IMG/VR virus record: IMGVR_UViG_3300045141_000205
Location: 1 to 61,639 of that record
DNA length: 61,639 nt
DNA from: a virus
Strand: one strand, 5' to 3'
Shown here: positions 4,041 through 60,998 of the stretch, in pieces
Numbering within the stretch: the first letter of the stretch is position 1
Layout: the number at the start of each line of letters is the position of its first letter
The notes under the pieces: generated by a model
Seen by the model: only the letters and a program-made list of their open reading frames with translations
What the model was told of the DNA's origin: nothing
Databases searched by the model: none
Made by a program: the position numbers and the translations under genes

Positions 4041-4076
4041 CACTCCTTCGGAGGGGTCAGCGATGATTCGACAGCA
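4041..4076 (-). repeat. 36-bp unit-start element, copy 12 (before sheath)
   Basis: On the coding strand this reads TGCTGTC, 20 bases including CTGA, then GAAGGAGTG. It lies between the stop of the tail terminator gene and the GTG of the sheath gene. Both blocks and the 20-base spacing match the other eleven copies. Confidence 0.85.
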
Positions 4077-4081
4077 GGTGA

Positions 4082-4753
4082 TCAGTGCCAGTCGTTGAAT
4101 CCGTTGCCGATGGCGATCCCCTCGGGAAGGTCCGCCAAGGTCTGATTGGGCATCAGCACCTCCTGGGTGACGATGATGGCCGACAGCGGAACCAGGGCGC
4201 CGGTGATGTTGTCGGAGACGAACTCCCCGATCACCTGCATGTTGATGGTCCGCTCATAGATTATTTCATCTGTACCCCAGGGAGTGCCCGGAGCAGCGGT
4301 GTTGCCCTGCGGCTCGATCTCGTCGAAGTCGAAGTTGGCGGCGATGAACTCGTTGGACTCGATGGTCTTCCGGAACCTGGACCGCTCGTGGTTCTCCTTG
4401 CCGAAGGCGAAGGTGGTCACCAGTTCGTCGTAGAGCCGGTCCCGCTCCCAGGAGGTGAGAGCGGTGACGGTGAAGGAGGCGTAGCCGGTGTACTTCCACC
4501 GGGTGTACGGCTGGAAGCCGGACGGGTACCCCGGCACCGCCCCCGGCGTCTCGTGGTACTCCTTGTGGTCCACCCCGGCCACCATCAACTTGTCGGAGTC
4601 GGTGTAGTCGACCCATACCCCCGGATATGCCATCTTCTCCACGGGGTACTCCATGCTGACGTGGACGTTGCGGAAGTCCTCCTCGGGGTAGGAGTCGTCG
4701 AAGGTGCGCTTGACGGCCTCCACCAGCAGGGTCTTCAAGGGAGCCAGATACAT
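4082..4753 (-). CDS. Probable tail terminator (tail completion) protein
   Basis: A 223-aa protein starts at ATG nine bases after the stop of the gp10-like gene; a GAAGGGTGAG ribosome binding site overlaps that stop. The N-terminus (MYLAPLKTLLVEAVKRTF) is a helix followed by a strand-rich domain containing VWVDYTD and a central YTGYASFTVTALTSWERDRL segment. That fold order is common in phage tail terminators, which cap the tube and sheath and join them to the neck. It lies between the gp10-like neck protein and the sheath, where this protein is normally encoded. The function is inferred from position and general fold pattern. Confidence 0.72.
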   Translation of the reverse strand: MYLAPLKTLLVEAVKRTFDDSYPEEDFRNVHVSMEYPVEKMAYPGVWVDYTDSDKLMVAGVDHKEYHETPGAVPGYPSGFQPYTRWKYTGYASFTVTALTSWERDRLYDELVTTFAFGKENHERSRFRKTIESNEFIAANFDFDEIEPQGNTAAPGTPWGTDEIIYERTINMQVIGEFVSDNITGALVPLSAIIVTQEVLMPNQTLADLPEGIAIGNGFNDWH

Positions 4754-4762
4754 GTTTTCATC

Positions 4763-7468: not shown

Positions 7469-9589
7469 TCACAGTTCGGCAGAGAAGTCCAAGTAGGCCC
7501 CGGCAACCGCTGCCCGAAGCCAGGCTGAGCCGCCTACCGGAGCACCGATGGCCGCAGCCGTGGTGAAGGCCAACTCGACCACATCCGTGTTCCGCTCCAT
7601 CTGCAAGAGAGAGGTCGGAGCAGCATTACCGCTTCCGCCGTAGACAAAGAAGGTGGTCCCAGCCGAGGACCCGAAGGTCGGCGGGACACGCATCGGCACA
7701 GGAAGCCGGAAGGGTGCGTAGAAGGAGGTAGCGGTCCAGGCAGTACCTATCGCAGCCGCCGTGTAGGTGGTGGTACCGACCCAGCGGTAGAAGTACCGCT
7801 GACACCAGGCGAGTTGCTGCTGGACGGGAATCCGCTCGAAGTTCGTCGCGGTCGGCCCCTCCTCCAACTGGACGTCGGCCAGGTGCACCGTCCAGTTCTG
7901 GATGCCGATGTTGGACGCCCGAGCCGCCTGCGTCGACCCCGCCGAGAGCCAGAAGTTGATGGCCACCCACTCGCTCCCGCTGGTCCCCAGCGTCTTTCCG
8001 GACACCGCAGGGACCGTGAAGGTCGTGCTGTACTTCGACCACCCGGTGGTGACCTGGATGGGAATCACCGCCGCGAACACAGCAGCAGACGGTGAGCCTC
8101 CGGTGCCGAAGTTCTGCTGGACCTCGATTCCGATCTTGTTCGCGACGCTCCCGTAGGCCCAGAACGACAGGGTGACCTGCTTGCCCGCGAGGGTACGCAC
8201 ATCCTCGATCACGCTCTGGAGGACTACGTAGTCACCGGCAGCAGCCGTGTTGGTGACCGCACACTGCGCCTCGTACCTCGCGCCGCCGATGGTGGCTGAG
8301 TCAGTCAGAGAGAGCGTGTTCCGGGTCACGTTGATGAGGTTGAGCGCCGAGACGGCGACTAACCAGCCGTCCAGACCGTAGCCCGTGTTGAACGGTCCGT
8401 TCCCGCGCTGTGCGACCGAGAAGTCCCCGTTGCGCAGCGCGTTGCGGAAGCCGGTCGACCCGATGACTCCGCCGCCACCGCCACTCGACCCGGTGCTGGC
8501 GATGCCGGTGCCCTCGACGGTGAGCAGGATGCCAGCGTGCCCGCCGCCGTAGTTGTTGTAGATGCTCAACTGGCCGTTGACGACGCCGAGGCTCCGCCAC
8601 CCCAGTTTGTACGTCTTGACCGTGCCAGGTGTCAGACCCCGCACGGGCATGGAGACGGTCGTTCTCTCATACCGTGGCCCGGCACCGATGGTGGCGACCG
8701 CGACGGTCGTGGTCCCTTCACGCACCGTCATCTCGTAGACCCCGGTGCCGGTGAACTCCATCAGCCCAGTGGCCGAGAAGATGATCTCCCCGGAGGAGGG
8801 CACCGTGAACGTGATGGCCGCATTCGCGGCATCGACGTCGGTGTCAACCCCGGTGGTCGGTGCGACGTACTGGGTGCCGGTCGTGACCTCCTTGAACCCG
8901 AGGAGAGAACTCGTGGTGTCAGCAAGCGCCTTGATGATGAAGGTGACCGCGAGAGTGGGGTGATGCATGGGGACGGTCGTCTGCGTACCGGCCTCAGCCG
9001 AGCCGTAGGCGTTCGAGGTGAAGATCGTGGTGTCCGTACGGAAGTTGACGTCGTTGCCAGACACGCCCCGAGCGAAACGGTCGTTGACACCACCTATCCC
9101 AGCAGTCCCGGAGGGAGCGCCGTGCGCGTGCTTCGGCAACTGCTGCGCAGTCAGCGTGGTCATCTCGTTGCCCCACTTGGTAGCGAGGCCGAAGTTGAGA
9201 GCGGTGCCCTGAGTCGGAACCACTGCACCGACGCCGATCGGAGAGCGCGCCTGGAAGTCAGGCAGGAAGTACGTCGTCCCTGAGTGGGTGCCGAAGGTGT
9301 CCCCCAGAGCCACCGCCAGGTCCGGGTAGGTCGTGGACAGGAACGTGCCACCGTTGCAGATCAGGTAGCCGCCCGGTGGTGTGGCTCCACCCCACATGCT
9401 GATCGTGCCGACCGGACCGCTGCCGCCGCCGCCACCAGCCCCGGAACCCACGACCGTCTCCACACCCGCCGCATTCAGGGTGTACAACTTCCCGTCACTG
9501 GTCTTGGCGTACAGCCGGACCGCGTCGGAGACCGGGACCGCAGGGGTCGCCGCGACCGAGCGCAGGTCGACGGCTCCATAGGTCCTCAC
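7469..9589 (-). CDS. Tail fibre protein with tail-collar domain and receptor-binding C-terminus
   Basis: The start is a GTG overlapping the upstream TGA (AAGTGAGG), giving 706 aa. Residues about 50-115 form a phage tail collar domain (GTISMWGGATPPGGYLICNG ... YFLPDFQARSPIG). A beta-rich middle and Gly-rich linkers follow. The C-terminal 300 residues resemble a common fibre domain: RNALRNGDFSVAQRGNGPF, an ISFWAYG-like strand, FGTGGSPS, a TLGTSGSEW segment, VQLEEGPTATNFERIPVQQQ, and a Tyr-rich QRYFYRW end. Such fibres recognise the host surface. It is the last of three consecutive fibre genes with stop-start overlaps. Confidence 0.88.
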   Translation of the reverse strand: MRTYGAVDLRSVAATPAVPVSDAVRLYAKTSDGKLYTLNAAGVETVVGSGAGGGGGSGPVGTISMWGGATPPGGYLICNGGTFLSTTYPDLAVALGDTFGTHSGTTYFLPDFQARSPIGVGAVVPTQGTALNFGLATKWGNEMTTLTAQQLPKHAHGAPSGTAGIGGVNDRFARGVSGNDVNFRTDTTIFTSNAYGSAEAGTQTTVPMHHPTLAVTFIIKALADTTSSLLGFKEVTTGTQYVAPTTGVDTDVDAANAAITFTVPSSGEIIFSATGLMEFTGTGVYEMTVREGTTTVAVATIGAGPRYERTTVSMPVRGLTPGTVKTYKLGWRSLGVVNGQLSIYNNYGGGHAGILLTVEGTGIASTGSSGGGGGVIGSTGFRNALRNGDFSVAQRGNGPFNTGYGLDGWLVAVSALNLINVTRNTLSLTDSATIGGARYEAQCAVTNTAAAGDYVVLQSVIEDVRTLAGKQVTLSFWAYGSVANKIGIEVQQNFGTGGSPSAAVFAAVIPIQVTTGWSKYSTTFTVPAVSGKTLGTSGSEWVAINFWLSAGSTQAARASNIGIQNWTVHLADVQLEEGPTATNFERIPVQQQLAWCQRYFYRWVGTTTYTAAAIGTAWTATSFYAPFRLPVPMRVPPTFGSSAGTTFFVYGGSGNAAPTSLLQMERNTDVVELAFTTAAAIGAPVGGSAWLRAAVAGAYLDFSAEL

Positions 9590-11244
9590 TTCTTCACCAC
9601 CGCCGTCAAGAAGTTCGTTGCCACATCGCTGTGCGAGCGCAGCGCGACGGTGTTCAAGTCCACGACCTTCCAGTCCACGTTGACGTTCTCCTTGCTGGCC
9701 GCCTCCTTGACCCACACGCCGACATCCTCGGTGCCCAGCGAATGCGTGATGTTGAGCCACGTCCCAGCGGTCATCGCAGGCACGGGGACCGTGTACGACG
9801 CCGCCCCACTGACCGTCGGGTCGGAAGACTGCACCGCCCGGATGATGAAGTTGATGCCCAGAATCGTGTGGGTGACGTTGGCGGGAGAGCCGCCACCGAT
9901 GTACGTCGTGGGAACGCCAGACGAACCGGCGCTGTTGCTCCACTGCACGATGGTGGTCCCGTTCGCCCAGAACGGGCCACCCGCTTGCGTACCACCGTTG
10001 GTGACATTCTGGATGTGGGCGTGAGAGGGCATCTCAGCGACAGTCTGGGTGTGCCTGCTCTCACCGAACTTCTGACCGAGCGAGAAGGCGTACCCGGAGC
10101 CGTCATCCGGTGAGGGTGTGCCGGTACCGATCGGTGAGCGTCCCCGAAAGTCCGGCAGGTAGTAGTTGGTCCCGGAGTGGGTGCCGTAGGTGTCGCCGAG
10201 CAGCGTCGCCAGATCCGGGTAGGTCACCGAGGAGAACGTGCTGCCGTTGCAGATCAGGTATCCAGCCGGAGGTGTGGTGACAGGCCACATGTCGATCGTG
10301 CCGACCGGAGCCCCTCCGCCACCACTACCGATGGGCTTCCAGGCGCCACCACTCAGGATGTAGGTGGCTCCGGTGTCGGACTCGTAGATGATGTGGCCGT
10401 CGGACAGGCCGAACAGGCCCGGTCGGGTGGTCGAGGTGCAGAGCGTCTTGTTGTCGAGCGGTTGCCACTGCGCGGTGTCCCAGGCCTGCATGACCTTGTT
10501 GGTCTGGTTGTGGAACAGGTGACCTGCACCGGTTGGGTTCGGCGCCTGCAACGACCCGGCCTGATCGACGAAGGTGGCGACACGCCATGCCTGGGCGTCG
10601 GTTCCCAGCGTGGTGACCACCTGCAACTGGGTCATCATGTGGAACCGCCAGGCGTTTCCCTCGGTGATCTTCACCCATGAGCCACGCGCCACGGCTGCTG
10701 CGGTGTTGGCGTCGGAAGCACGCGCCCAAGCCCCGGCAGCCACCACGTAGATGCCGTTGTCGGCTGTGGTGGTCTGGTTGCGCACCAACACCCGATCACC
10801 GGCGACCAGGGCGACACCGTCGACGGTCTGGGTGCCGGACAGGGTGATGTTCGCGGTAGTCGCCGCTCGGACCGTTGCTCGCTGCAACGAGTCACCACCT
10901 CGACTGTCTACATAGTCCTTGGTGGTGTAGTGAGTGGGATCTGTGGGCGGCTGTCCCGAGATCGGGTGGTTAGCCAGGATGCTGTAGCCAGGACCCTGAG
11001 AACTGAGTCGGAGGGTCCCGTAGTCACCTGAGATCTTCGCGCCGTTCCAACTGATCGGGACGTCAGAATCGAAGTACAGGACCCCGGTCATGTAGTCGCC
11101 CGTGGTATTGACATAGAGCGAGTCCGCAGTCGCCTGGCTCAGGCCACCACCTGCCTTGCTGTCGACGTACTGCTTGGTGGCAGCCTCCATCGCTGCTACC
11201 GGATCAGCCGGTAGCACGACGGGGGTCAGGAACTTCTTGCTCAC
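9586..11244 (-). CDS. Tail fibre protein with central tail-collar domain
   Basis: A 552-aa protein starts with a GTG that overlaps the upstream stop. It opens MSKKFLTPVVLPADPVAAME with ATKQYVDS, repeated once downstream as DYVDS; these short trimeric fibre-shaft units are frequent in phage fibres. Residues about 115-210 form a beta domain (GVALVAGDRVLVRNQTT). A tail collar domain lies near residues 315-380 (YYLPDFRGRSPIG). The C-terminal 80 residues are a distinct beta domain ending AVVKK. The collar segment closely resembles that of the next fibre, suggesting duplication. The likely role is adsorption. Confidence 0.88.
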   Translation of the reverse strand: MSKKFLTPVVLPADPVAAMEAATKQYVDSKAGGGLSQATADSLYVNTTGDYMTGVLYFDSDVPISWNGAKISGDYGTLRLSSQGPGYSILANHPISGQPPTDPTHYTTKDYVDSRGGDSLQRATVRAATTANITLSGTQTVDGVALVAGDRVLVRNQTTTADNGIYVVAAGAWARASDANTAAAVARGSWVKITEGNAWRFHMMTQLQVVTTLGTDAQAWRVATFVDQAGSLQAPNPTGAGHLFHNQTNKVMQAWDTAQWQPLDNKTLCTSTTRPGLFGLSDGHIIYESDTGATYILSGGAWKPIGSGGGGAPVGTIDMWPVTTPPAGYLICNGSTFSSVTYPDLATLLGDTYGTHSGTNYYLPDFRGRSPIGTGTPSPDDGSGYAFSLGQKFGESRHTQTVAEMPSHAHIQNVTNGGTQAGGPFWANGTTIVQWSNSAGSSGVPTTYIGGGSPANVTHTILGINFIIRAVQSSDPTVSGAASYTVPVPAMTAGTWLNITHSLGTEDVGVWVKEAASKENVNVDWKVVDLNTVALRSHSDVATNFLTAVVKK

Positions 11245-13007
11245 CCAGTGACCACGATCCTGTGCTCGCCAGCCGCAGTCGCCACGTTGAAGCGGACGGT
11301 CACATTGTTGGCGTCGGTACGCTCCACGTCGCAGTCGACAGTGTCCCAGGGCGTGGTGTTGCGGTAGACGTTGACGATGACGTCACGAGTGTTGAAGGCG
11401 TGGTTGACCACGGTGGACGTGGCAGCCGCTGTGGATGCCGAGATGACCCGGACGCTGGCTGTGTGCGTGTGATCGGACTTCGCTGCGGTGACCGCCGACC
11501 CGGTGCCCGCGTAGTTCACGCTCAGCAGGTCAGCGGCTGCGGTCAGCGATCCATCGGTGACGACGTTGATGGTCTGCCCGACCTGGGTCAGGCCGTTGCC
11601 TGCGTTGACCGAGCCCATGGAGGAGAACTGGGTCCAGGTGATCGCGGTGGTGCCCAGGGTGCCGCCCTGGTCGGCGGTGCAGACCCAGCCGGTCTCGGCC
11701 TGGTTGGAGCCCTGCTCGACAAACACGAACGCACCCGGAAACTCTGCCCAGGTGTCCAGGTCGGTCGCACGAACCCAAGTACCGTTAGAGCCCGATCCGA
11801 CTGTCTGAACCGTGTAGATGCCGTTCTGCGACATGGTCGTTTGGTCTTTGACCAGCACCCGGTCGTTGACGACCAACGCGATGCCGTCGAGGGTCAACGG
11901 AGTACCAGTCGCCAGGTTGGCAATGTTTCCGGTGGTAGCCGCATGCACCGACTGCTTGGCGTCCAGGCCCTGAGCCACACCGTCGACGTACTGCTTGTTC
12001 GCAGCATCGGTGGTGGCGATCGGGGTCAGCACGTTGCGCACCAACTGACCGTTCATGTCGACGCTGTTGATCGCGACGTTGATCATGTCCAGGGTCCAGT
12101 TGCCGGGGATCGCCTGGCCCCCCAGGTTCCCTAGTGTGCGCATCGACGGGGTGGCGTTCGCACCGTCCTTGTTGGCCGCCGCGATGTCACCGTGGACGAT
12201 CGTGCCGTCCAGGATCGCGGCGCTGGTGACCTTCCCTACCCCGATGGTCGGGTTGGGGTAGGTGCCAGTCAGGTCGCCACCGGCTGCACCAGAGGGAGCC
12301 CGTGCGTCGGTGAACCGGCTGTCGGCACCGGACGCGGCCTGGGTGGCTCCGGTGCCGATCGTGCGCAGCGACGGGACCGCGACGGCGCCGTCCTTGTTGG
12401 CGGCGTTCACGTCGGCGTCGGTGATGGTGCCGTCGAGGATGTGGTTGGAGGTGACCTTGCCCGCAGCGATCGTGGGGTTCGGGTAGGTGCCGGTCAGGTC
12501 TCCACCAGCCGCGCCGGAGGGGGGCAGTGTCGTGGGGAGCACCCCGGGTGCCAGGTCGCCAGCCACGATCGTGCCGTCGGCGATGTGGCTGGAGGTGACC
12601 TTCCCGACCCCGAAGTTCGGGTTGGGGTAGGTGCCGATCAGGTCGCCGCCAGCCGGACCACCCGGCAGGGCGGTGATCGAGGTGTGGGCGGCGTTGTCGT
12701 GGAGGGGGTTGCCGTGCTTGTGGTCGTTGCGGGCCACCGTGCCCCCGGCGCCGTCCGAGGCAACACCGCCGAACGTGGTCTCTGAGGAGACCGCCCCGAA
12801 CCCCGGGAACGCCGAGGACCCGCCCGCCGCACTGATCCAGGACGGCGTACCGCCGCCCACCTTGCACCAGTAGAGGGTGCTGTCGGTGGTGTTGAAGTAC
12901 AACTGGCCGACGACCGGGTTGGCCGGTGCACCGGTCAGGTTCTGGACGACGGCGTTCTGGACCTCGTTCTTCCCCATGTCCAGGTGGGTCAGGAACTTCC
13001 GTGCCAT
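11241..13007 (-). CDS. Tail fibre protein with repeated Gly-rich shaft units
   Basis: A 588-aa protein starts at an ATG after GAGGAG. The N-terminus (MARKFLTHLDMGKNEVQNAV) and the VGQLYFNTTDSTLYWC element are typical fibre-attachment sequences. Residues about 115-270 hold three repeats of a GDLTGTYPNPTI-type unit plus a variant (GDLIGTYPNPNF), each followed by VTS and a DGTI segment; these look like trimeric shaft repeats. A GIALVVNDRVLVKDQTTMSQ domain near residue 375 parallels the one in the next fibre gene. The C-terminus is beta-rich. The stop overlaps the next start. Confidence 0.87.
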   Translation of the reverse strand: MARKFLTHLDMGKNEVQNAVVQNLTGAPANPVVGQLYFNTTDSTLYWCKVGGGTPSWISAAGGSSAFPGFGAVSSETTFGGVASDGAGGTVARNDHKHGNPLHDNAAHTSITALPGGPAGGDLIGTYPNPNFGVGKVTSSHIADGTIVAGDLAPGVLPTTLPPSGAAGGDLTGTYPNPTIAAGKVTSNHILDGTITDADVNAANKDGAVAVPSLRTIGTGATQAASGADSRFTDARAPSGAAGGDLTGTYPNPTIGVGKVTSAAILDGTIVHGDIAAANKDGANATPSMRTLGNLGGQAIPGNWTLDMINVAINSVDMNGQLVRNVLTPIATTDAANKQYVDGVAQGLDAKQSVHAATTGNIANLATGTPLTLDGIALVVNDRVLVKDQTTMSQNGIYTVQTVGSGSNGTWVRATDLDTWAEFPGAFVFVEQGSNQAETGWVCTADQGGTLGTTAITWTQFSSMGSVNAGNGLTQVGQTINVVTDGSLTAAADLLSVNYAGTGSAVTAAKSDHTHTASVRVISASTAAATSTVVNHAFNTRDVIVNVYRNTTPWDTVDCDVERTDANNVTVRFNVATAAGEHRIVVTG

Positions 13008-13018
13008 CGTGTGCTCCT

Positions 13019-13309
13019 CTAACTGAGGTAGGCGACGCCGCTGAATGCGCCGGAGAAGTCGAGGTTGAGTGAGTTGGAGTTGGTGTAGACGATCTCGCCC
13101 TCGACGATCGAGCCCGCCGAGTCGATGACGATGATGTTGGGGTTGAACCCGAGGTTGTGGTCGACCACCCAGTGCGCCGAGGCCGGTCCCTGGTGGTGGG
13201 TGTACACGGCACCTGCTGGACCAGGTGGTCCAGGCGGACCCGGCTCACCTGGAGGTCCGGTGGAGATGTACTCCCAGCCACTGGCGGTCTTGACCTTCGC
13301 GGCACCCAT
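13019..13309 (-). CDS. Short collagen-like fibre-tip or linker protein
   Basis: The start chosen is the ATG in a TGATG overlap, giving 96 aa (MGAAKVKTASGWEYISTG). Residues 18-32 are a short collagen run ([15 protein letters not shown]). The C-terminal 60 residues (HWVVDHNLGFNPNIIVIDSA onward) look like a small beta-rich fibre-end domain often found after collagen repeats. The N-terminal KVKTASGWEYI resembles the start of the 328-aa collagen-like protein ([12 protein letters not shown]), so both may attach to the same site. Confidence 0.82.
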   Translation of the reverse strand: MGAAKVKTASGWEYISTGPPGEPGPPGPPGPAGAVYTHHQGPASAHWVVDHNLGFNPNIIVIDSAGSIVEGEIVYTNSNSLNLDFSGAFSGVAYLS

Positions 13310-14850
13310 CAGCCGGTCACCTGCCTGTCGAGCGCGGTCTGGTACTGCTGGACGACGGCGTAGAGGTCGGCGTTCTCCTGATCGCTCAGGCCCGACCCGA
13401 TCGAGGCGAACCCGCACGGCAGGTCGGTCTTGTCCACGAAGGTGTTGATCCCGCCGATCCAGACCGAGGTCGGCGGCAGCCCGATCGACGACGGCGTGGT
13501 CGTCTGGAGGTTGACGCCGTTGCGGTACGCGGTCTGTGAGGCCGGTCCGGTGCGGGTGGCGACGAACAGCCCCGACGACGCGGGCACGTTGACGTTCGAG
13601 GTGCCCTCCTCGGACATCCCGTAGTAGTACATCGTCGGCTGGTACCGGGCGATGACGTGGAACCGCGACGCCGCCGTGCCGGTCCAGTTGTAGCAGCCCA
13701 TCTCGCACCGGGAGACCGGTGGCACGTCGGCGAGCGAGTAGAAGGCGAGGTGGGTGGAGTCCTGGGTGAGCAGGCCGAGCGGGACACAGTGGGTGTCGGC
13801 GTAGTAGCCGCTGGACACGTTGCTCTGGCCCTGCTGGTTGGCTCGGTACCCGAGGGCGGTGGAGTGGTAGCCGCCGTTGAAGGTCAGCCGGTAGGCGGCG
13901 TCGGCGTCTCTGGGGTCCTTGAGGTTCCACTGATGCAGGGCTGCGGTGCCACCGATGAACGGGTAGATGGCGAGCATCTTCGACCACAGGCCTCGGGCCT
14001 TGAGCCCGACGACCAGGCGGTCCAGGGGCTGAGCGTAGGAGGAGTCCAGGCCGGTGGCCGTCAGGTACGCCTGGGTGTCCGGGTCGTAGACGGGGGCCTG
14101 CGGGGTGATCCACTTCGCACGCAGGTAGTCCTCGACGCCCGCACGCTCGGTGGGGCTTAGACAGCGGTCGTAGAAGATCATCTCCCCGATCTGACCGTTC
14201 ATCGCGTAGCCCGCTGGTACGTACCCTCCGATGTGCCACGGAGTCGTGGTGGGGGTGGGCGACCAGGAGGATTCGACCTCGTTCCCGTCCACCCGCAGAC
14301 CCTGGCTGGCGGTGCTGGACTCGCACCACACGGTGATCATCTGCGGAGCACCGGACCAGGCGACACCGCTGTCCAGCACGGGGGTGGAGTAGGTGTGGAT
14401 GGTCCCGTTGGGGTAACCGTACGTCTGCATGTACGGGTACTCCTCCTGGAGTTGGGTGGTGTGGTACGTCGCGTAGGAGTTGCCGAGGGTCTGGATCACC
14501 TGGAAGATCGTGCGGTCCCCGATGCTGGGCATCGCACCGGTCTTCATCGAGGAGAACGCGCCGAACTCCCCGAACCGCAGGGAGGCGCGCCCGTTGATCC
14601 CGTTGGCCCGGTAGGTGACGGTGCCCCGGTTGACGGCGGGGGAGAGGTTGTTGCCGGAAGCGTCAGCCCACACCGGCACCGGGGCGCCATCGGCCTTGCC
14701 GGTCATCTGGGTGGCATCGAGCCAGACCAGCAGCCCAGGGATCGACTTCGGTCCGGATGCCGAGGGTGGCCAGACATCTGTGCCCTGGTGCAGCGCGGTG
14801 ACCGGGATCGTGCCGTAGCGGAGGGCGTGGGTCTTCATGATGGCGGTCAT
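13309..14850 (-). CDS. Tail adhesin with concanavalin/LamG-like domain
   Basis: A 513-aa protein overlaps its neighbours at both ends (ATGA at the start). After a short N-terminus, residues about 35-260 form a LamG-like lectin module starting IPGLLVWLDATQMTG and ending IGEMIFYDRCLSPTERAGVE, then YLRAKWITP. The same module occurs inside the 2243-aa adhesin upstream. The second half has a repeated Ser/Thr/Gly-rich beta pattern with a VWIGGI element. LamG-like modules in phage tails usually bind surface polysaccharide. No hydrolase residues are evident. Confidence 0.82.
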   Translation of the reverse strand: MTAIMKTHALRYGTIPVTALHQGTDVWPPSASGPKSIPGLLVWLDATQMTGKADGAPVPVWADASGNNLSPAVNRGTVTYRANGINGRASLRFGEFGAFSSMKTGAMPSIGDRTIFQVIQTLGNSYATYHTTQLQEEYPYMQTYGYPNGTIHTYSTPVLDSGVAWSGAPQMITVWCESSTASQGLRVDGNEVESSWSPTPTTTPWHIGGYVPAGYAMNGQIGEMIFYDRCLSPTERAGVEDYLRAKWITPQAPVYDPDTQAYLTATGLDSSYAQPLDRLVVGLKARGLWSKMLAIYPFIGGTAALHQWNLKDPRDADAAYRLTFNGGYHSTALGYRANQQGQSNVSSGYYADTHCVPLGLLTQDSTHLAFYSLADVPPVSRCEMGCYNWTGTAASRFHVIARYQPTMYYYGMSEEGTSNVNVPASSGLFVATRTGPASQTAYRNGVNLQTTTPSSIGLPPTSVWIGGINTFVDKTDLPCGFASIGSGLSDQENADLYAVVQQYQTALDRQVTG

Positions 14851-17114: not shown

Positions 17115-17150
17115 CATCCCTTCGCAGGACTCAGGGGGCCTCTGGCAGCA
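17115..17150 (-). repeat. 36-bp unit-start element, copy 11 (before collagen-like fibre)
   Basis: The coding strand reads TGCTGCC (one mismatch to TGCTGTC), 20 bases including CTGAG, then GAAGGGATG. The downstream GGAGGGAGG ribosome binding site follows within a few bases. Confidence 0.85.
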
Positions 17151-27372: not shown

Positions 27373-27408
27373 CATCCCTTCGTGGCCCTCAGGCAGCCCT
27401 CGACAGCA
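27373..27408 (-). repeat. 36-bp unit-start element, copy 10 (overlaps end of WhiB-like gene)
   Basis: The coding strand reads TGCTGTC, 20 bases, GAAGGGATG. TGCTGTC lies inside the last codons of the WhiB-like gene (Leu-Leu-Ser), and the TGA of the internal CTGAG block is that gene's stop codon. The element therefore overlaps coding sequence and still keeps its spacing. Confidence 0.85.
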
Positions 27409-50026: not shown

Positions 50027-50062
50027 CACCCCTTCGCGGCGCTCAGGTGCCCGGCGACAGCA
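50027..50062 (-). repeat. 36-bp unit-start element, copy 3 (overlaps end of portal gene)
   Basis: The coding strand reads TGCTGTC, 20 bases, GAAGGGGTG. TGCTGTC lies in the last codons of the portal gene and the TGA of CTGAG is the portal stop. An AGGAGGATC ribosome binding site follows downstream. Confidence 0.85.
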
Positions 50063-52232
50063 CCTGGTCCTGCTGCTGGTCCGGCTGCTCCTCTTCCAGG
50101 GTGTCCAGGAGCACCGGCTCACCTCCCTGCCGGAAGGCGTGCCTGCGCATCCCGACGTGCCTGGGGCTGTCGAAGCCGGGCACGGTGGGACCGTCGTAGG
50201 TCCCGACATTCTCGTCCTGGGCGGTCCGGGTCATCGGCTCCGGGGCCGGGTTGTGCTCGTCGGTGATCTCCCGCATCCGGGTGGCCCGGCGCCACAGGCT
50301 GACCGCATCCAGGGCGGCGGCCTTGGGCATGTCCTTGCGCATCTCGTCGGACTCCTCGGGCCGGTCGGACTGGACCTGGGTCTCGGCGCCCTGGCCGTTG
50401 GGGTCGAACGGCTGCACCGGGATGGTGGGCACCCCGGGAGTCACCACACCGCCAGCCGTGGGGGCCGCGAAGTCGCCCTGGGTGGGCGCCAGGGTCGGGG
50501 TGGTGATGATCGGGTCGGCACCCATCAGCGGCACCCGGAGCCCCTGGGACTCCTGGGTCGGAATGTTGGCGGCCTTGGCCTCGAAGTCGGCCCGCAGATC
50601 ATCGGGGATCGGCAGACCCTTCTCCTTGAGCGCCTGGAAGATCTCCTTGCGGGTCTCCTGCTCCTTGACCGCCAGTTCCACCTGCTCGCCCTGGGACTGC
50701 TCCACCTCGTCCGCGAACTCCAGCGGCAGGTTGACCAGCCGGGTCTTCATCGAGACCGGGATACCCGCTGCCCGCAGCGACTCCAGGAACTGCCGCTCGG
50801 ACTCCTCGTCCTTGATGTTCATCGTCTTCATCTTGAGGTCCGGGATCAGCAGTTTCGGCTGCTCGACGACACGCTCCTCACCGGTCTCCTCGTCGATCTC
50901 CAGGATCTCCTCCATCTTCACGTAGCGCTTGCCGTTGCGCTCGTCGTAGTCGTAGTGCTCCTGGGCCTCGGCCACCACCAGGGCACGCTGCCGGTAGTGC
51001 CGCTTGACCAGGTTCTGGTAGGTGGTCAGCAACTGGCTGATCAGGTCGCGGTTCAGGGCGTCGGCGGCGTACGTCTGGCCCGAGGAGGCGCCGGTCAGCA
51101 TGGTCTTGGAGAGCCCGAAGGTCTGGAGGATGCGGTCCTCGATCCGCTCGAAGTCCGGGGTCATGTCGGGCATGTTCTCCCGCCCGAACACGGACTCCAT
51201 CTGGACACCGAAGTGGTGCACCATCACCCGGAAGTCGGCGCTCAGCGCCTCGTCCAGCGCCTCCTCGAAGTCGGCAAGATCGTCCTGGGTCGGAATCCAC
51301 GGGACGGTGGTGCCCAGGTCGGTCGCCGACGCTCCCAGTCGCGCCAGGATGAGCGGGGTGTAGAGCCGGTCTGCCACTGCGTCCATCGCCGCATTCAGCA
51401 TCTCCTCCTGCATCACCGGACGCAGCGAGCGCATCAGCAGGGGGACGCCTCGCTTGTTGAAGGTGTCGGCCTTGAACCGGTAGTGCCGCAGCAGGATGTT
51501 GGACACCGGCATCAGGGCGTCCTCGGTCGTGTAGTGGCTCAGTTCCGGGTAGGCCTGCATCAACTTCTCGTACTCCCAGGCCGGGGAGCGCTTGGTGATG
51601 ATCTCCCGCAGGGTCTCCGGCAACTTGATGAAGTACCGGGGCTCCTTGAGGAACGGGGACCTGACCACCTCCAGGTCGTCGGGGTTGAGCAGTTCGTCGT
51701 CGTCCCAGACGCCCAGGGACTCGTTGAACGACCCGAACGGCACCGCCTCGCCCACGGTCCAGTACTCGCGCCCGAAGTCGATCAGGAAGTCGCCGTACCC
51801 CAGGCCGTCGTCGTCGTCGAGGAAGTGGTCGGTGTAGAACTCCGTCAACTTTTCATCTTTGCAGGACATCTCCATGCCCAGCAGCGGGTACTTGGTGTAG
51901 ATGTCCACACATGACCCGATCAGCGGGTGCGACTGGTACAGCAGACGGCAGTAGGCCCGGACCTTCTTGAGTTCGTCGTGCTCGTACAGGTCGTAGGGGA
52001 GGTTGTTCTGCTTCCAGTAAAACAGCGGGTCCCGGGGCCGCCCGGTGGCGAAGGTGAGGTTGCCACCCCGACTGCCACCACCGGCAGCGTTGGTGTTGGC
52101 GGTCTTGCGGTTCACGGCGCGGTTGCGCCGCATCTCCTCGACCTCCGGGTTGTCCTCGGCCTTGGCCCTCTTCCGGAACGACCCGAGGCGCTTGATGACG
52201 GCCTCCTCGTAGCCGTCAGGCTGGTCAGCCAT
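50043..52232 (-). CDS. Portal protein
   Basis: A 729-aa protein starts by overlap with the preceding gene. The N-terminus is basic. The region 75-300 (PRDPLFYWKQNNLPYDLYEH ... HELKKVRAYC ... PLIGSCVDIYTKYPLLGMEM) and the central part (DALMPVSNILLRHYRFKADT ... KRGVPLLMRSLRPVMQEEML) match the pattern of large phage portal proteins: membership in a dodecameric ring at one capsid vertex through which DNA passes. LTGASSGQTYAADALNRDLI near 400 fits the portal stem/wing region. The C-terminal 180 residues are Pro/Gly-rich and disordered and may be cleaved or bind other head proteins. Confidence 0.93.
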   Translation of the reverse strand: MADQPDGYEEAVIKRLGSFRKRAKAEDNPEVEEMRRNRAVNRKTANTNAAGGGSRGGNLTFATGRPRDPLFYWKQNNLPYDLYEHDELKKVRAYCRLLYQSHPLIGSCVDIYTKYPLLGMEMSCKDEKLTEFYTDHFLDDDDGLGYGDFLIDFGREYWTVGEAVPFGSFNESLGVWDDDELLNPDDLEVVRSPFLKEPRYFIKLPETLREIITKRSPAWEYEKLMQAYPELSHYTTEDALMPVSNILLRHYRFKADTFNKRGVPLLMRSLRPVMQEEMLNAAMDAVADRLYTPLILARLGASATDLGTTVPWIPTQDDLADFEEALDEALSADFRVMVHHFGVQMESVFGRENMPDMTPDFERIEDRILQTFGLSKTMLTGASSGQTYAADALNRDLISQLLTTYQNLVKRHYRQRALVVAEAQEHYDYDERNGKRYVKMEEILEIDEETGEERVVEQPKLLIPDLKMKTMNIKDEESERQFLESLRAAGIPVSMKTRLVNLPLEFADEVEQSQGEQVELAVKEQETRKEIFQALKEKGLPIPDDLRADFEAKAANIPTQESQGLRVPLMGADPIITTPTLAPTQGDFAAPTAGGVVTPGVPTIPVQPFDPNGQGAETQVQSDRPEESDEMRKDMPKAAALDAVSLWRRATRMREITDEHNPAPEPMTRTAQDENVGTYDGPTVPGFDSPRHVGMRRHAFRQGGEPVLLDTLEEEQPDQQQDQVLSPGT

Positions 52233-52557: not shown

Positions 52558-52922
52558 GTCGACTCGGGCTCATCATTCTTCTTGGCAGTGGTCTTCTTGG
52601 CGGCGGTCTTCTTGGTGGTGGCCTTCTCGGGCTCGGCCTTCTCGTCCGTGTCCTTCTCGGCCTTCTCGTCTGTGGCCTTGGCAGCGGTCTTCTTGGGCTC
52701 GGCCTTCTTCTCGGCCTCGGCCTTCTTGGCCTCATCCTCCTCGAAGTGCTTCTTGGCCTCATCCACGTCCAGGGTCAGGAAGGCCCGGTACACCATGGAG
52801 TTGACCTCACGGCGTTGCCGGTCGCTGTCGTAGGCCACCGTGATCACGTCGCCCCGGTGCCGCTGCTCGCCCCCGGCGTCGATGAAGTCCGCCAGCACGG
52901 CTACCTCTCTGGTCGTGCTCAT
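52554..52922 (-). CDS. Small protein with histone H1-like Lys/Ala-rich tail
   Basis: A 122-aa protein overlaps its neighbours by ATGA. The first 55 residues are a small beta-rich domain (VAVLADFIDAGGEQRHRGDV). The remaining 65 residues are Lys, Ala, Thr and Glu-rich with KKTAAK repeats (AEPKKTAAKATDEK and TTKKTAAKKTTAKK). The basic tail resembles bacterial histone H1-like proteins and could bind DNA or anionic capsid interior. It also repeats the KTA motif seen in neighbours. Confidence 0.78.
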   Translation of the reverse strand: MSTTREVAVLADFIDAGGEQRHRGDVITVAYDSDRQRREVNSMVYRAFLTLDVDEAKKHFEEDEAKKAEAEKKAEPKKTAAKATDEKAEKDTDEKAEPEKATTKKTAAKKTTAKKNDEPEST

Positions 52923-53581
52923 GACCTGCTCGCCTTCACTCGGGTGAGCACCCTCGGGCGCTCACGGGGAGATGCCGCCATCAGCGCGATGTGACGCACG
53001 TACTCGTCCTCGCTCAGGAAGTCCCCGCGCACCGTCCGGTAGGAGTTCTTGGCCCACGGCGGCGCGTTGTCGTCCTCGTCCTCCTGCTCCTCGGCAGAGT
53101 CGTCGTCGCCGTTCTCCGGCTCCTCGTCCCCGCCACCGAACTGTGGCGGTACGTCTCCGTTCTCGTCCACCTGGCCTGGGTCCACCGGGGCACCGGCTGC
53201 GGCGTTCGGGTCCATGCCCGCCCCCGAGGGGTCGACGCCGACCTGGCCTGGCATCCCGGGCACCTGCACCGGCTGGCCGTCGATGGTCTGCGGGAACGAG
53301 GGGAACTGGGGCTGCACCTGGACGGTGAAGTTGACGTGGCAGAACTCGCACTCGATGGTCCGGTCGGACCGGGCGATCACCTGCCCGGACCCGCAGAAGG
53401 GGCAGTGGTAGACAGTCTCGCCGTCACCGGAGTCGTGAGCCTGCTTCCTCATGGCTGTCGTATCCACGGTCTCTCCTCGCTCACGCACACAGGAGGCGCA
53501 GAGCAGGTCGCCGCCGACTCGCTGCCTGGGGGTGCCGGGATCGACCTTGTACCCGCATCTCTCGCACAGCCTCAACGCCAT
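52919..53581 (-). CDS. 220-aa protein with two zinc ribbons and acidic tail
   Basis: The start chosen is the ATG five bases after GGTGGAGG, giving 220 aa (MALRLCERCGYKVDPGTPRQ); an upstream GTG overlaps that site. The first zinc ribbon is CERC ... CASC (residues about 6-31), the second CPFCGSG ... CEFC (about 60-80). The middle is Pro/Gly-rich, followed by a very acidic stretch (EEPENGDDDSAEEQEDEDD). The end is helical and basic. It heads the portal unit after copy 2 of the element. Function unknown; an adaptor or DNA/RNA-binding head protein is plausible. Confidence 0.77.
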   Translation of the reverse strand: MALRLCERCGYKVDPGTPRQRVGGDLLCASCVRERGETVDTTAMRKQAHDSGDGETVYHCPFCGSGQVIARSDRTIECEFCHVNFTVQVQPQFPSFPQTIDGQPVQVPGMPGQVGVDPSGAGMDPNAAAGAPVDPGQVDENGDVPPQFGGGDEEPENGDDDSAEEQEDEDDNAPPWAKNSYRTVRGDFLSEDEYVRHIALMAASPRERPRVLTRVKASRS

Positions 53582-53590
53582 CGCTTCCTC

Positions 53591-53626
53591 CACCCCTTCG
53601 GCGGGGTCCGGCGCCCTGGGACAGCA
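53591..53626 (-). repeat. 36-bp unit-start element, copy 2 (before portal unit)
   Basis: The coding strand reads TGCTGTC, 20 bases, GAAGGGGTG. It is followed at once by GGAGG and the ATG at 53581, so element and ribosome binding site are continuous. Confidence 0.85.
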
Positions 53627-57027: not shown

Positions 57028-59295
57028 TCACTCTCCCTGGTGGGACTGGAGCAGGTTGGCCTGCACCGTGCGGCGGAAGGCCCGGGTCTGCGGGCTCAGG
57101 TGCTGGTAGGCCGCCGCGTCCACCGGCGCCCCCGGCTGGGTGTCGATGGCGGTGGGCTGGCCGTGGGTGACCGAGAGGTTCGGCACCACCGGAGCCCCGT
57201 ACGGCTCGGCCCCGTTGTAGGGGCTCGGGCCACCAGCGGCTGCCGGGTCGGCACCACCTGCCAGCGGACCCGGACGACCCGGGCCGTTGATCGGCGTGGA
57301 GCCGGTCGGGCTGGGGCTGGTCGACGGTGAGATCGAGTCCAGGTCGGTCATGGTGGCGGCGGTGGCCTGGAGGCCCTGCTCGGGACGCAGGTAGCAGCCC
57401 TCGACCTGGAAGCCCTGGAGGTCCTTGGCGGCCCGCTTGGTGAACTCGCGGTGCATCCGCAGCCGCTTGATGTAGTGCCGGTCCTGGTACTTGGTGGCGG
57501 CGGCCTCGTGGGCCTTCACCCAGTCGGCCTGGTGGTCGGGATTGTCGGACATCCCGGCGTACAGCCCGGCCTCGAACGGCACCGAGCCCTTCTTCACCAG
57601 CGGCTTCTTCGGAGTCCACTTGGCGGCGTACCGGTAGCCCTTGGCGAACTGCGGGTCCGAGGTCTCCATCGGGGAGGTGAAGGACGCCGAGACCTGGATC
57701 GACTGGACGCTGGCCGTGGCCTGGAGCGACCCGGCGTGGGTCTGGTAGGAGCCGATCCCACCCGCGCCCGGGGGCAGCATCCCAGGCTGGGCGCCACCGG
57801 TCGGGTCGGCCTGAGCGGCGTCCCCGTAGCCCTGCGCGTGACCCCGCACGAAGTCGGGTGCGCTGCTGGAGGCGTCGTTGTAGGTGGGCGCCTCGTCCGG
57901 CCAGTCGGAGGCCCCCTCGGCCACCCCCTCCTGGTAGGTGCCGGTCGGCGGCTCGGGGGTGGTGTACGGGCTGTTGGCGACCTCGGGCTGCGGCATCTCG
58001 TGCGGCTGCGACCACTGGTCGGCCCGCTTCTGGAGGGTGGCGGTGAACGCCCGGACCTCCTTGCGCTCGATGTCGGTCAGGTCCTCGTACGGCCTGTCCA
58101 TCAGACCCGCGACGTAGGCGGCCCGACGCTGGAACGCAGCCAGGGATGCCGAGTGGCCACCCCCGGACTCCTGCTTCTTCTGGTCCTCGGACTCCTGGCC
58201 CCCGTCGAGCAGCCACGGGTAGGCCACCTCGGTGGGCAGCGGCTCGGGCCTGGGGTTCTCCTGGGAGTCGACGACCTGCTGCACCTGGTCGAGCCCGGAG
58301 GCGGCCTCCTTGTCGAGAGGCTCGCCCAGTTTGTGACCACAGCGAGCACACTTCTCACCAGCCGGAGGCGGTCCACCGCAGTTGGGGCACTTCCCGGCCT
58401 CCTTGACCAATGCCTCCTTGTCGAACTGCGCGATGAAGTCGTCGAGGTTGCCGACGTGGCTGATCGCCAGGCTGGGCTCGAAGAGAGCAGCGGTCTTGCC
58501 GTGGCTGCATGTGCACGAGCCGCCCGAGCAGTCGGCGCAGGAGCCGTCAGCGCAGGGCACGCAGGAGCCGCCGCCACTGGACTCACCCTGGGTCGAGCCG
58601 GGGCTGGCCTCGACCGGAGCCGGTCCTGCGAACTCCTGGGACTCGTCGTGGTGACTCGGGTCCGGGGGCGCCACCTGCTGGCCGGAGTTGCCCTCGATCT
58701 CCTGGATCAGCGGCGCCCGCTCGGAGGTCTCGGTGCCAGAGACGCCCTGGTTGATCGGGTGCACCTCCGGCTGGAAGGTGTCGAAGACATCCTGCGGCAG
58801 CGGGGTGGTCTTGGGGTTCTCGAAGGAGTCCACCTGCTGCTGCACCTGGTCCAGGCCCGAGGCGGCCTGGGTGCGCAGGAAGCCCACGTAGTCCATGAAC
58901 TGCCGCTCGGCGGCCTCGGACTGCTCGCCGTACCGGCCTGCGGTGTGCCGGGCCATCCCCCTAGCCTGCTCGGTGAACTCCTCGGGGTCGGACTTCACCT
59001 CGTCGCTGGTCCGCCCGAACCACATCGCCGCCTCGGCGCTGATCTCGTTGGCGTAGTCGTCGTAGGAGGCCTGCACCTCCCCCAGCCAGTCGGTCTCGGC
59101 GGTGGAGCGCTCGTGCACCGCCACCGGGCTCAGCGTCTCCCGGATGATGGTGTCGGTGAGGTCGATCGAGTCGGCCTGCGCCTGCATGGCAATCCGGTCC
59201 CGGTCGTAGGCGTCGAGTTGACTGACCAGCGCCGCCTGCTCGGCAAGCGTGGCTGCCTTCTGGATGCTCTGGACGATCTCGTCTCGCTGGCTCAC
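57028..59295 (-). CDS. 755-aa Cys-rich head-region protein with duplicated module
   Basis: The GTG start overlaps the upstream stop. An N-terminal helical region (about 1-145) is followed by AASGLDQVQQQVDSFENP near 148 and a second copy, AASGLDQVQQVVDSQENP, near 335. Between them lie a short cluster CVPCADGSCADCSGGSC and a zinc ribbon CPNCGGPPP ... CARC (about 305-325). The middle (about 530-680) contains a basic helical segment (KYQDRHYIKRLRMHREFTKR). The C-terminus is Pro/Gly-rich. Duplicated segments around metal-binding clusters suggest an internal repeat structure. No family is recognised. Confidence 0.77.
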   Translation of the reverse strand: MSQRDEIVQSIQKAATLAEQAALVSQLDAYDRDRIAMQAQADSIDLTDTIIRETLSPVAVHERSTAETDWLGEVQASYDDYANEISAEAAMWFGRTSDEVKSDPEEFTEQARGMARHTAGRYGEQSEAAERQFMDYVGFLRTQAASGLDQVQQQVDSFENPKTTPLPQDVFDTFQPEVHPINQGVSGTETSERAPLIQEIEGNSGQQVAPPDPSHHDESQEFAGPAPVEASPGSTQGESSGGGSCVPCADGSCADCSGGSCTCSHGKTAALFEPSLAISHVGNLDDFIAQFDKEALVKEAGKCPNCGGPPPAGEKCARCGHKLGEPLDKEAASGLDQVQQVVDSQENPRPEPLPTEVAYPWLLDGGQESEDQKKQESGGGHSASLAAFQRRAAYVAGLMDRPYEDLTDIERKEVRAFTATLQKRADQWSQPHEMPQPEVANSPYTTPEPPTGTYQEGVAEGASDWPDEAPTYNDASSSAPDFVRGHAQGYGDAAQADPTGGAQPGMLPPGAGGIGSYQTHAGSLQATASVQSIQVSASFTSPMETSDPQFAKGYRYAAKWTPKKPLVKKGSVPFEAGLYAGMSDNPDHQADWVKAHEAAATKYQDRHYIKRLRMHREFTKRAAKDLQGFQVEGCYLRPEQGLQATAATMTDLDSISPSTSPSPTGSTPINGPGRPGPLAGGADPAAAGGPSPYNGAEPYGAPVVPNLSVTHGQPTAIDTQPGAPVDAAAYQHLSPQTRAFRRTVQANLLQSHQGE

Positions 59296-60947
59296 AGCGG
59301 TGTCTCCTCTTCGTTTCCAGCCACCATGGCTGCATGCCGGGCAATCACGCCCCGGGGGTTGTTGACGCTGGACTGTCTCGGAAGGTTGAGTTGCCGGGGA
59401 GAGTCAGAGAACGCCCGACCTCCCGCGCCCCCGAAGGCCTCGGTGTAGCCGCACTTGAGACACCGGTACTTGTCGCCCTGCCGGGCCAGTGTCCCGGTGT
59501 TCCCGCAGGACGGACAGGAGTTGCTGGGGGCCTGGTTGGACCCGGCGTCACCGGGGTGCAGCGGCATCTGGGCCATGTTGCCGCCCGGGGTGCCCAGGTC
59601 CGGGATGGCCTGCTGCTGGGAGTTCTGCGGCATCACCGTGAACTTGGTGTCGTACGGGACCACCGTGGTGCCCGCGTCGGTGTCGACGTAGTAGTGCTGC
59701 GGGCTGTACTCGTGGCGCCGGATGTTGTTGACGGTGACGGTCTGCCCGGTCGGGGTGTTGATCTGGTCGCCCTTGTTGATCAGGATGCGCCCGTCCGCCG
59801 AGGCCACGGGTGTCTCGACCCGGGTGGCCTCGTGCAGGCTGCTGGTCCGGGTGTAGTCGGTCCTGACGGTCGGCCCCGGGTGCTGGTGCGGAGCCTTGAG
59901 CAGGCTGTAGGAGCCGCAGGCCGAGCAGGCCGGGCCGGTGTTGGCCAGGACCGGTGAGCCGACACTCCCGCAGGCCTGGCACTCCCGGTCCCCGGCGTGC
60001 TCCACACCCGGCGACTGCGCGGTCTTGGCGCCCTCGACCTTGTGCTTGATGGAGCCGCAGTAGGCCTCCGGGTCGTCCTTGTCGGAGTTGGCCTTCACAC
60101 ACGAGTCGAAGTCGGTGTAGCCCGCGAACGGGGCGCCCTTGTGCATCGCTTCCATGGCAGTCCTCGTGAACGGGTTGAGTGCACGGATACGGGCGTCGAA
60201 GGCGTCGGCCCGGGCGTCCCGCTCGGCCTTGGTGCTGGCGTCCCGGGCCACGACCTTGCCCTCGGGCGTCCAGGTGTAGACCTTGCAGTGGCCGGGGGTC
60301 TCGACGTGACCGAAGGTGGTGGCGCCCATGCCGCCCTCGTCCCGTCCAGGTGACCCGCACTCGGGGCACGGGGGAGGAGAGATCGCCGAGGCCAGCCGGT
60401 GCAGGGAGGCGATCCGGCCCGACTCCCGCTCACCGGGCTTGGCGATGTACTCATCCGGGCAGCACGACCAGCAGTTGCTGTAGTCGGCCCGGTGGTCCCG
60501 TGCGTGCGCTACCCCTCGCCGGGCATCGGGGTGGTGGGCCTCGTTGTGGCACTGCTGCACGAAGTTGATGTAGACCTCCTGGGACTTCCGGTCCCCGGTG
60601 GTCTTGCCGCCGTGCTCGCACCGTTGCACCAGGTACGGGTCGAAGTCGGCGTCGTCGGTGACATCCCGGGGCTGGAACTCGGTCCTCGGTCGGTCGATGG
60701 TCTTCACGCGCACCCGCTGCCGCTCGGGCTCGGGCTGCCGCTGGGGCTCGGGGTCCCAGGGGCTGGCGGCGGTCTTGCGCTGCTGCTGAGCCATCTGGCG
60801 CCGGACTTTCTTCTGATCCGCACTGGGCTGACGGCGCTGGATCGGCTTGGTGGCCTGGCGCATGGGCTGCTGGCTGGGCGCGTCGTCGGAGCGCTCGGCG
60901 CTCCACTTCACACCCTGCTTCACACCCTCGGCGCTCAGGTCGTCCAT
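59292..60947 (-). CDS. 551-aa Cys/His-rich protein, first gene of the head unit
   Basis: The start chosen is the ATG after AAGGAG seven bases upstream, giving 551 aa (MDDLSAEGVKQGVKWSAERS); a longer GTG start lies inside the element. A basic N-terminus with RKTAASPWDP near 59 leads to a His/Cys-rich domain (CWSCCPDEY near 153; CPEC near 185). Near 283-305 a FAGYTDFDSCVKANSDKDDP then EAYCGS segment matches a short motif common in actinobacteriophage capsid-region proteins. Zinc ribbons CQAC/CSAC (about 325-345) and CPSC/CLKC (about 485-505) follow. Function unknown. Confidence 0.78.
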   Translation of the reverse strand: MDDLSAEGVKQGVKWSAERSDDAPSQQPMRQATKPIQRRQPSADQKKVRRQMAQQQRKTAASPWDPEPQRQPEPERQRVRVKTIDRPRTEFQPRDVTDDADFDPYLVQRCEHGGKTTGDRKSQEVYINFVQQCHNEAHHPDARRGVAHARDHRADYSNCWSCCPDEYIAKPGERESGRIASLHRLASAISPPPCPECGSPGRDEGGMGATTFGHVETPGHCKVYTWTPEGKVVARDASTKAERDARADAFDARIRALNPFTRTAMEAMHKGAPFAGYTDFDSCVKANSDKDDPEAYCGSIKHKVEGAKTAQSPGVEHAGDRECQACGSVGSPVLANTGPACSACGSYSLLKAPHQHPGPTVRTDYTRTSSLHEATRVETPVASADGRILINKGDQINTPTGQTVTVNNIRRHEYSPQHYYVDTDAGTTVVPYDTKFTVMPQNSQQQAIPDLGTPGGNMAQMPLHPGDAGSNQAPSNSCPSCGNTGTLARQGDKYRCLKCGYTEAFGGAGGRAFSDSPRQLNLPRQSSVNNPRGVIARHAAMVAGNEEETPL

Positions 60948-60962
60948 CAGCACTCCTTGCCT

Positions 60963-60998
60963 CACCCCTTCGTGGGGGAGACGCAGGGCGGGACATCA
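60963..60998 (-). repeat. 36-bp unit-start element, copy 1 (before the head unit)
   Basis: The coding strand reads TGATGTC (one mismatch), 20 bases, GAAGGGGTG. It is the most upstream copy in the window and lies 53 bases past the hairpin that follows the winged-helix gene. The 60999-61050 stretch between them shows no clear promoter. Confidence 0.8.

Follow-up and report, generated by a model that had tools for sequence, protein, structure and literature searches.

The IMG/VR virus record IMGVR_UViG_3300045141_000205 is a DNA stretch of 61,639 bases (hereafter, the window), a fragment by which alone its own genome is represented. The window possesses twelve copies of a 36-bp element, TGCTGTC-N20-GAAGGG, which precede gene starts in a region of virion genes. 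Comparison with related viral genomes suggests that this element is probably the late promoter of the phage lineage, "late" being defined by gene function. This reading is based on the complementary distribution of the element and sigma-A-like sites, the near-exact spacing of its two boxes without RNA covariation, the conservation of both boxes whatever their distance from the start codon, the strong folding found directly upstream of many copies, and the presence of a conserved protein resembling sigma factor region 4. An earlier note on the window had considered a late promoter unlike that of sigma-70 among the possible functions, and the comparison supports this option.

Copies of the element in the window

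A search for TGCTGTC-N20-GAAGGG with at most one mismatch gave 12 matches in the window, whereas 0.13 were expected from dinucleotide shuffles (maximum 2 in 100 shuffles). All 12 are on the minus strand, which is the coding strand here and carries most of the window genes, and they are the same 12 places that the earlier note had listed. Its finer details were also reproduced: copies 1 and 11 are mismatched in the upstream box (TGATGTC at 60966-60998 and TGCTGCC at 17118-17150, in coding order), and the downstream box reads GAAGGA at 4044 and 31578 and GAAAGG at 27721. Allowing three mismatches made the search of the window uninformative (26 matches vs. 26.9 expected). The motif CTGA(G), described as standing at a constant offset within the 20 bases, does so in most window copies, but it has weak support as a part of the recognition sequence; it contains the stop codon of the upstream gene at 27376-27408 and 50030-50062, and a weak Y-N-A-S-N-C-C is all that remains at its place in relatives.

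The major head protein (MCP) of the window is, among the matches listed, 55–62% identical to those of the Mycobacterium phages Myrna and Bxz1-like (Ceeclamvirinae) and of related Gordonia/Rhodococcus phages. It is 82–96% identical to the MCPs of the 80 viral-contig loci that were kept out of 269, ten of them on contigs of 150–167 kb. Given these identities and the PHROGs matches to virion proteins, the window most likely covers the virion genes of a large actinophage with a contractile tail, related to Myrna and the Bxz1-like phages. The putative late elements and the principal genes are as follows.

60963-60998, minus strand: late element 1, TGATGTC-N20-GAAGGGGTG; before gene 59292-60947
53591-53626, minus strand: late element 2; before gene 52919-53581
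50043-52232, minus strand: portal protein gene (PHROGs phrog_2833, E 8e-156); within a block
50027-50062, minus strand: late element 3; before the 1261-aa gene 46219-50004, overlapping the portal gene stop codon
44018-44053, minus strand: late element 4; before the protease-domain gene 37443-44006
37443-44006, minus strand: 2187-aa protein with a head-maturation-protease-like N-terminal domain (PHROGs match)
34287-34322, minus strand: late element 5; before gene 33405-34241
33249-33284, minus strand: late element 6; before the scaffold-like gene 32663-33187 (the MCP gene comes next)
31651-32637, minus strand: MCP gene (phrog_2522, E 1e-102); within a block, without an element
31575-31610, minus strand: late element 7; before the small open reading frame (ORF) 31466-31558
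30505-30540, minus strand: late element 8; before gene 29930-30475
27718-27753, minus strand: late element 9; before the WhiB-like gene 27389-27706, with an inverted repeat directly upstream
27389-27706, minus strand: WhiB-like regulator gene (PHROGs match)
27373-27408, minus strand: late element 10; before gene 26693-27349
17115-17150, minus strand: late element 11, with TGCTGCC; before the tail-fibre-like ORF 16112-17098, whose start was missed by the gene caller
7469-17098: tail-fibre-like and other virion proteins (PHROGs matches)
4041-4076, minus strand: late element 12; before the tail sheath gene
2461-4005, minus strand: tail sheath gene (phrog_2839, E 7e-63)

Recurrence and spacing of the element in relatives

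A motif search in relatives, which the earlier note had suggested, recovered the element in the six related contigs that were fetched (G001–G004 and G006 whole; G005 as 80,000 of its 81,351 bases). For this search, a position weight matrix was built from the window copies and refined on forward hits, and it was run over seven genomes, i.e., the window and the six contigs. The coding strand had 94 sites and the opposite strand 3. One site (G004, oriented position 11245) lies within a predicted gene and was dropped before the later counts, which refer to the remaining 93 copies. The consensus reads T-S-C-T-G-T-C, ten free bases, Y-N-A-S-N-C-C, three free bases, GAAGRGGTG and four purines. The spacing is nearly exact: when [CA]TGTC followed by GAAG[AG]GGTG was searched for without the matrix at gaps of 8 to 35, 60 matches had a gap of 20, compared with 2, 1, 1 and 1 at gaps of 21, 22, 28 and 11, respectively, and this strict pattern gave one reverse-strand match in total. 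The information content of the element is 30–46 bits per genome vs. about 13–15 bits needed to locate as many sites, the former values being inflated by a uniform background, high G+C and the use of matrix-selected sites.

The position of the copies at the borders of gene blocks, which are possible points of module recombination, would also suit a site for a DNA transaction (recombination, packaging or replication), and a gene for a sigma-region-4-like protein, described below, lies near the terminase gene. However, the single orientation relative to genes (94 vs. 3) and the coupling to gene starts make such a site very improbable.

A broad pattern scan of viral contigs yielded 34 stretches, three of them on the G004 and G005 contigs; the relatives used here were chosen by their MCP matches. 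Among remote genomes, the strict seed search found none in G010 and one in G012. With a relaxed pattern, G010 had 11 matches in the forward and 6 in the reverse direction, most of them degenerate. G012 had 9 and 3, respectively, and eight of its forward matches precede plausible starts as judged by eye. As a separate observation, the block CCTGTGAAGGGGTGAG is nearly invariant at columns 22-37 of the element in G004 and contains a second CCTGT, 21 bp (about two helical turns) after that of the upstream box.

Position of the element relative to genes

Each of the 93 copies is either intergenic with respect to the predicted genes or reaches into the final bases of the gene upstream. In 92 of them, a gene is predicted to start within 330 nt on the same strand, which gives 91 distinct genes, and the remaining copy (17118-17150) precedes ORF 16112-17098, whose start the simple gene caller missed. 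With the window counted, the element precedes the orthologues of the protease gene and of gene 26693-27349 in 6/6 genomes each and the tail sheath orthologue in 6/7; a 141-aa gene outside the window is likewise preceded by the element in 6/6 genomes.

We also examined MCP-derived IMG/VR loci with enough upstream sequence at a score cut-off of 12, some of these loci being from genomes behind the matrix. An element above the cut-off was found upstream of gene 26693-27349 in 11 of 12 loci, gene 29930-30475 in 23 of 30, the protease gene in 16 of 42, the scaffold-like gene in 23 of 76 and the sheath gene in 1 of 2. By contrast, none was found upstream of the MCP gene (0/78) or of gene 25728-26693, which lies inside a block (0/20). 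The claim of the earlier note that the element stands before the first gene of a block and not inside blocks agrees with these counts, with some "blocks" consisting of one gene.

Two further features concern genes that follow the element. In six loci (L057, L063, L064, L067, L070 and L081), the leader of the orthologues of gene 32663-33187 contains an inverted repeat (e.g., ATCGGACAT...ATGTCCGAT) between the late element and the Shine-Dalgarno sequence, possibly forming a 5' untranslated hairpin ahead of the capsid genes; its folding z-scores are modest (−1.6 to −3.3), and in a seventh locus, L066, a different place was folded. In the window, ORF 37443-44006 encodes, in a single frame, both the protease-like N-terminus and, around residues 1118-1241, a NUDIX-like stretch, and the members of its group in relatives were called at 575-1505 aa.

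Complementary use of the element and sigma-A-like sites

We compared spacer segments of late regions with those of the rest in G001–G003, adding the window to the late class, and searched them for the sigma-A-like pattern TTGM-N16..19-TANNNT. Of 218 non-late segments, 48 contain such a site, against a shuffle mean of 3.1 and 2 on the opposite strand; of 86 late segments, 4 do (shuffle mean 0.7). By genome, the counts for the rest and the late region are 19/65 vs. 0/20 in G001, 21/72 vs. 3/25 in G002 and 8/81 vs. 1/20 in G003, and 0/21 in the window. The element itself is present in 55 of the 86 late segments and in 3 of the 218 others, all three of the latter preceding relatives of the window virion-block gene 46219-50004; this enrichment is partly circular, as the late borders were drawn by eye with knowledge of the elements, whereas the scarcity of sigma-A-like sites is not. 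The borders enclose the homologues of the portal, MCP, sheath and baseplate wedge proteins, and the helicase, primase and DNA polymerase genes are outside them.

The element contains neither half of a sigma-A-like promoter. TANNNT (−10) was found in 0/93 copies at columns −5 to 44 and TTGAC (−35) in 0/93 at columns −40 to 29, and the gap is 20 bp vs. about 17 bp in sigma-70/sigma-A promoters, in line with the dissimilarity to sigma-70 promoters pointed out in the earlier note. As judged from these patterns, host sigma-A-like promoters seem to serve many of the early and replication genes instead.

Outside the late regions of G001 and G002 (e.g., at oriented G001 57154-90453; pieces L140-L155), a second multi-copy promoter-like element precedes early genes. 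It approximates TTGAC-N-CTCCAACAATCCTTG-N-AGTANNNT and is often followed by a TGAC-N4-GTCA palindrome, a potential operator. A loose pattern for it gave 14 forward matches in G001 and 16 in G002 with 0 reverse, and 0-1 forward matches in each of the other five genomes.

Signals in DNA and signals in RNA

The distance from GAAG to the predicted start codon distinguishes 22 near copies (15-23 nt) from 71 others, most of which are further away; the near class is undercounted because the caller misplaced some starts. TSCTGTC and GAAGRGGTG are about equally conserved in both groups. Columns 37-39 become Shine-Dalgarno-like in the near class, with G at column 38 in 22/22 copies, and in late element 2 the start codon lies 18 nt past the G of GAAG, so that the element's own GGAGG can serve as the Shine-Dalgarno sequence. 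Because these columns change while the boxes are otherwise equally conserved, we infer that the 5' end of the transcript may lie at or before about column 36.

The Shine-Dalgarno-like 3' end in 22 of 93 copies and the predicted protein gene following 92 of 93 copies would also be expected of a translation signal, either an extended Shine-Dalgarno sequence or an mRNA site for ribosome loading comparable to the start-associated sequences of cluster K mycobacteriophages. We regard this explanation as quite improbable, since both boxes are about as conserved in the 71 copies outside the near class, and since it leaves unexplained the upstream box 20 nt away and the complementary distribution with sigma-A-like sites.

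The comparison with cluster K sequences, proposed in the earlier note, proved to be loose. The cluster K start-associated sequence is a 13-bp GGGATAGGAGCCC, typically located 3-7 bp before the start codons of non-structural genes (PMC3203893). The two are alike in being multi-copy, mostly in a single orientation and placed before actinophage gene starts. However, GGGATAGGAGCCC with at most two mismatches is not enriched in the seven genomes (0-3 forward vs. 1-4 reverse matches per genome), and the GAAG box lies at least 18 nt before the predicted start rather than 3-7 bp.

A processing, stability or antitermination site within a long late message is the other explanation at the RNA level. Its position between blocks would fit cleavage or antitermination, and the 44 nt upstream of the element fold below −18 kcal/mol in 32 of 93 copies vs. 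5-10% of stepped genome windows, coding sequence included. The same upstream folding would also result from terminators at the ends of some blocks, with transcription restarting at the element. The cores themselves also fold more stably than column-shuffled cores (−12.38 vs. −11.52 ± 0.22), which favors an RNA site and counts against a promoter. Nevertheless, the best of thousands of column pairs among the 93 distinct copies had a covariation z of 3.1, RNAalifold returned no consensus structure for them, and Rfam gave no match in the window at gathering scores. A constant 20-nt gap of unconserved sequence would be unusual for RNA, and the late spacers would be left almost without recognizable promoters. 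An RNA site of this kind is thus rather unlikely, and we prefer the reading of the element as a promoter.

Candidate protein for reading the element

One ORF in each of eight genomes matched sigma-70 region 4 (PF08281, Sigma70_r4_2), five of them over the curated cut-off, although this model is unspecific and matches in 13 of 14 control genomes, archaea included. Sigma region 2 (PF04542) was found in 0/8 genomes by a search whose control matched in 10 of 14 and which a strongly diverged region 2 would escape. T7-like polymerase (PF00940) was found in 0/8 records, yet the control genomes gave no match either. The sigma-4-like protein has a conserved part of about 115 aa within open frames of 125-329 aa, and the five others aligned are 50–57% identical to the G004 copy. 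In 6/6 genomes examined, its gene lies between the replication/recombination genes and the terminase gene, 5-6 kb before the next element. Among PDB chains, FliA region 4 is the best sequence match to the protein (E 0.93).

A profile of six sigma-4-like proteins finds ET08 gp205 (E 3e-9) and Finch gp84 (E 5e-6), which lie beside similar neighbors; Finch gp84 is annotated as "RNA polymease sigma factor". Myrna gp201 matches the protein by tblastn (E 7.5e-4) and belongs with ET08 gp205 to phrog_2931. The sigma-4-like protein is an unproven candidate for the factor reading the element. The ET08 and Myrna homologues are longer (265 and 297 aa, respectively) and have a second matched stretch. In G001, G002, G003 and G006, the open frame continues far past the conserved domain and runs into the following gene, which is read in another frame.

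A WhiB-like protein was also considered as the general factor and rejected, as this group was present in the window and G005 only among the called genes of the seven genomes. The WhiB-like gene 27389-27706 lies within the late region and has a late element on either side.

Comparison with known phage systems

Host RNA polymerase transcribes the middle and late promoters of SPO1 with phage factors, and the T4 late promoter is an AT-rich octamer, TATAAATA, at −10. T4 late promoters are described as being used by host RNA polymerase with gp55/gp33/gp45. Like the late promoters of T4 and SPO1, the element is multi-copy before virion operons, is nearly absent from other genes, differs from the host −35/−10 consensus and has a phage sigma-like protein as its proposed partner. 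The pattern typical of phage late promoters, many copies before virion genes and few elsewhere, is seen in the 55/86 vs. 3/218 segments given above. Unlike the AT-rich octamer of T4, the element consists of two GC-rich boxes 20 bp apart, and a region-4-like protein was found alone, with no region 2. TATAAATA with at most one mismatch occurs 0-1 times per genome on either strand of the seven genomes. The Streptomyces phage phiC31 has multiple conserved non-canonical early promoters that are thought to need a phage product. It is an actinophage as well, but these promoters serve early genes of an unrelated phage, and the likeness is one of description. Among the open-access papers listed in our literature searches, none was seen to describe such an element in the present lineage.

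The RinA/Ltr regulators of Gram-positive phages are small proteins encoded after the early and before the late genes, and phage Phi13 has one late promoter that keeps a putative sigma A TATA box (PMC13123087). The sigma-4-like protein is similarly small and encoded between early and late genes. By analogy, the element could be an operator only, i.e., a site for a phage activator that assists polymerase at a poorly recognizable promoter nearby, and this would partly overlap with our preferred explanation. We consider it unlikely. Whereas RinA/Ltr act on one promoter with a sigma-A box, there are many self-contained elements here, and TANNNT is present in none of the 93. The near-class elements abut the start codon and leave no space for a downstream promoter, no strongly conserved sequence was found upstream of the element to column −60, and the next element is 5-6 kb away from the sigma-4-like gene instead of following it directly.

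The element in named phages

A diverged form of the element with the same 20-nt gap, CCTGTG-N20-GAAG, occurs in both Myrna and ET08 ahead of the protease-like gene and of the tail sheath gene. The protease copies scored 14.9 in ET08 and 8.8 in Myrna (cut-off 12) with a matrix that never saw them. Over the whole Myrna genome, CTGT[GC]-N20-GAAG occurs 5 times forward (3 at gene starts) and 2 times reverse, numbers that are not significant by themselves; the claim for the named phages therefore rests on position. Dyad counts over the entire named-phage sequences were swamped by codon periodicity.

Evidence weighed against a promoter

Several further observations weigh against the reading of the element as a late promoter read with the sigma-4-like protein. 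In the named phages, the sheath copies score below the cut-off (ET08 1.1, Myrna 2.5), as does the Myrna protease copy; the scaffold-like gene is below it in all four phages, and Finch and RedWattleHog are below it throughout. Many remote relatives among the MCP-derived loci also fall below the cut-off before the protease and scaffold-like genes, where the element has diverged or is missing. The split between late and other segments is weak in G003, and it covers G001–G003 and the window. G004 (oriented 64632) and G005 (47939) each have an element near replication genes, and the genes that follow these two are confined to the genome concerned. Ordinary melting of the sigma type is difficult to square with a downstream box that is GC-rich and has no TANNNT. 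Among the open-access papers listed, no transcript data for this lineage were seen.

As for the protein, the absence of a region 2 match means that a complete phage sigma factor is not established, and neither Myrna nor RedWattleHog gave a match to the six-protein profile. With a pLDDT of 55, the AlphaFold model is poor. Although its top Foldseek matches are largely sigma factors or region-4 domains (SigR, SigD and the RslA-bound −35-binding domain; E about 0.01-0.2, with region-4 domains at 0.09-0.3), no match is under E 0.001, and LuxR-type (GerE) and phage small-terminase DNA-binding domains stand lower in the list. A role in packaging is possible for a gene near the terminase gene, and the window, a late fragment, has no known sigma-4-like gene.

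Proposed mechanism and implications

We propose that the element would be a bipartite GC-rich site read as double-stranded DNA, in which the upstream TSCTGTC box and the downstream box (GAAGRGGTG and four purines) are held 20 bp apart, with the weaker Y-N-A-S-N-C-C just ahead of the downstream box. Each virion-gene block would be fired separately by its own element, which in some cases sits directly behind a hairpin that may terminate transcription of the preceding block. The predicted transcription start coincides with the final purines of the downstream box or lies slightly before them. The most likely reader would be host RNA polymerase redirected by the small phage protein with a −35-binding region 4, which may bind the TSCTGTC box. 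A more specific model is doubtful, namely that across the lineage host core RNA polymerase opens the GC-rich two-box promoter together with a stand-alone region-4 protein lacking region 2, the rigid 20-bp geometry replacing an AT-rich −10.

The element may find use as an orthogonal, phage-dependent promoter for high-GC hosts. It also makes testable whether actinobacterial RNA polymerase can open a TANNNT-less promoter whose boxes and spacer are all GC-rich, and with which partner. If the specific model is true, opening with a stand-alone region 4 would be a new way to build a bacterial-type initiation complex. If the element is the late promoter, the promoters of a large group of actinobacterial myoviruses, relatives of the Bxz1-like mycobacteriophages, could be mapped by their time of use, and a candidate switch protein would be named.

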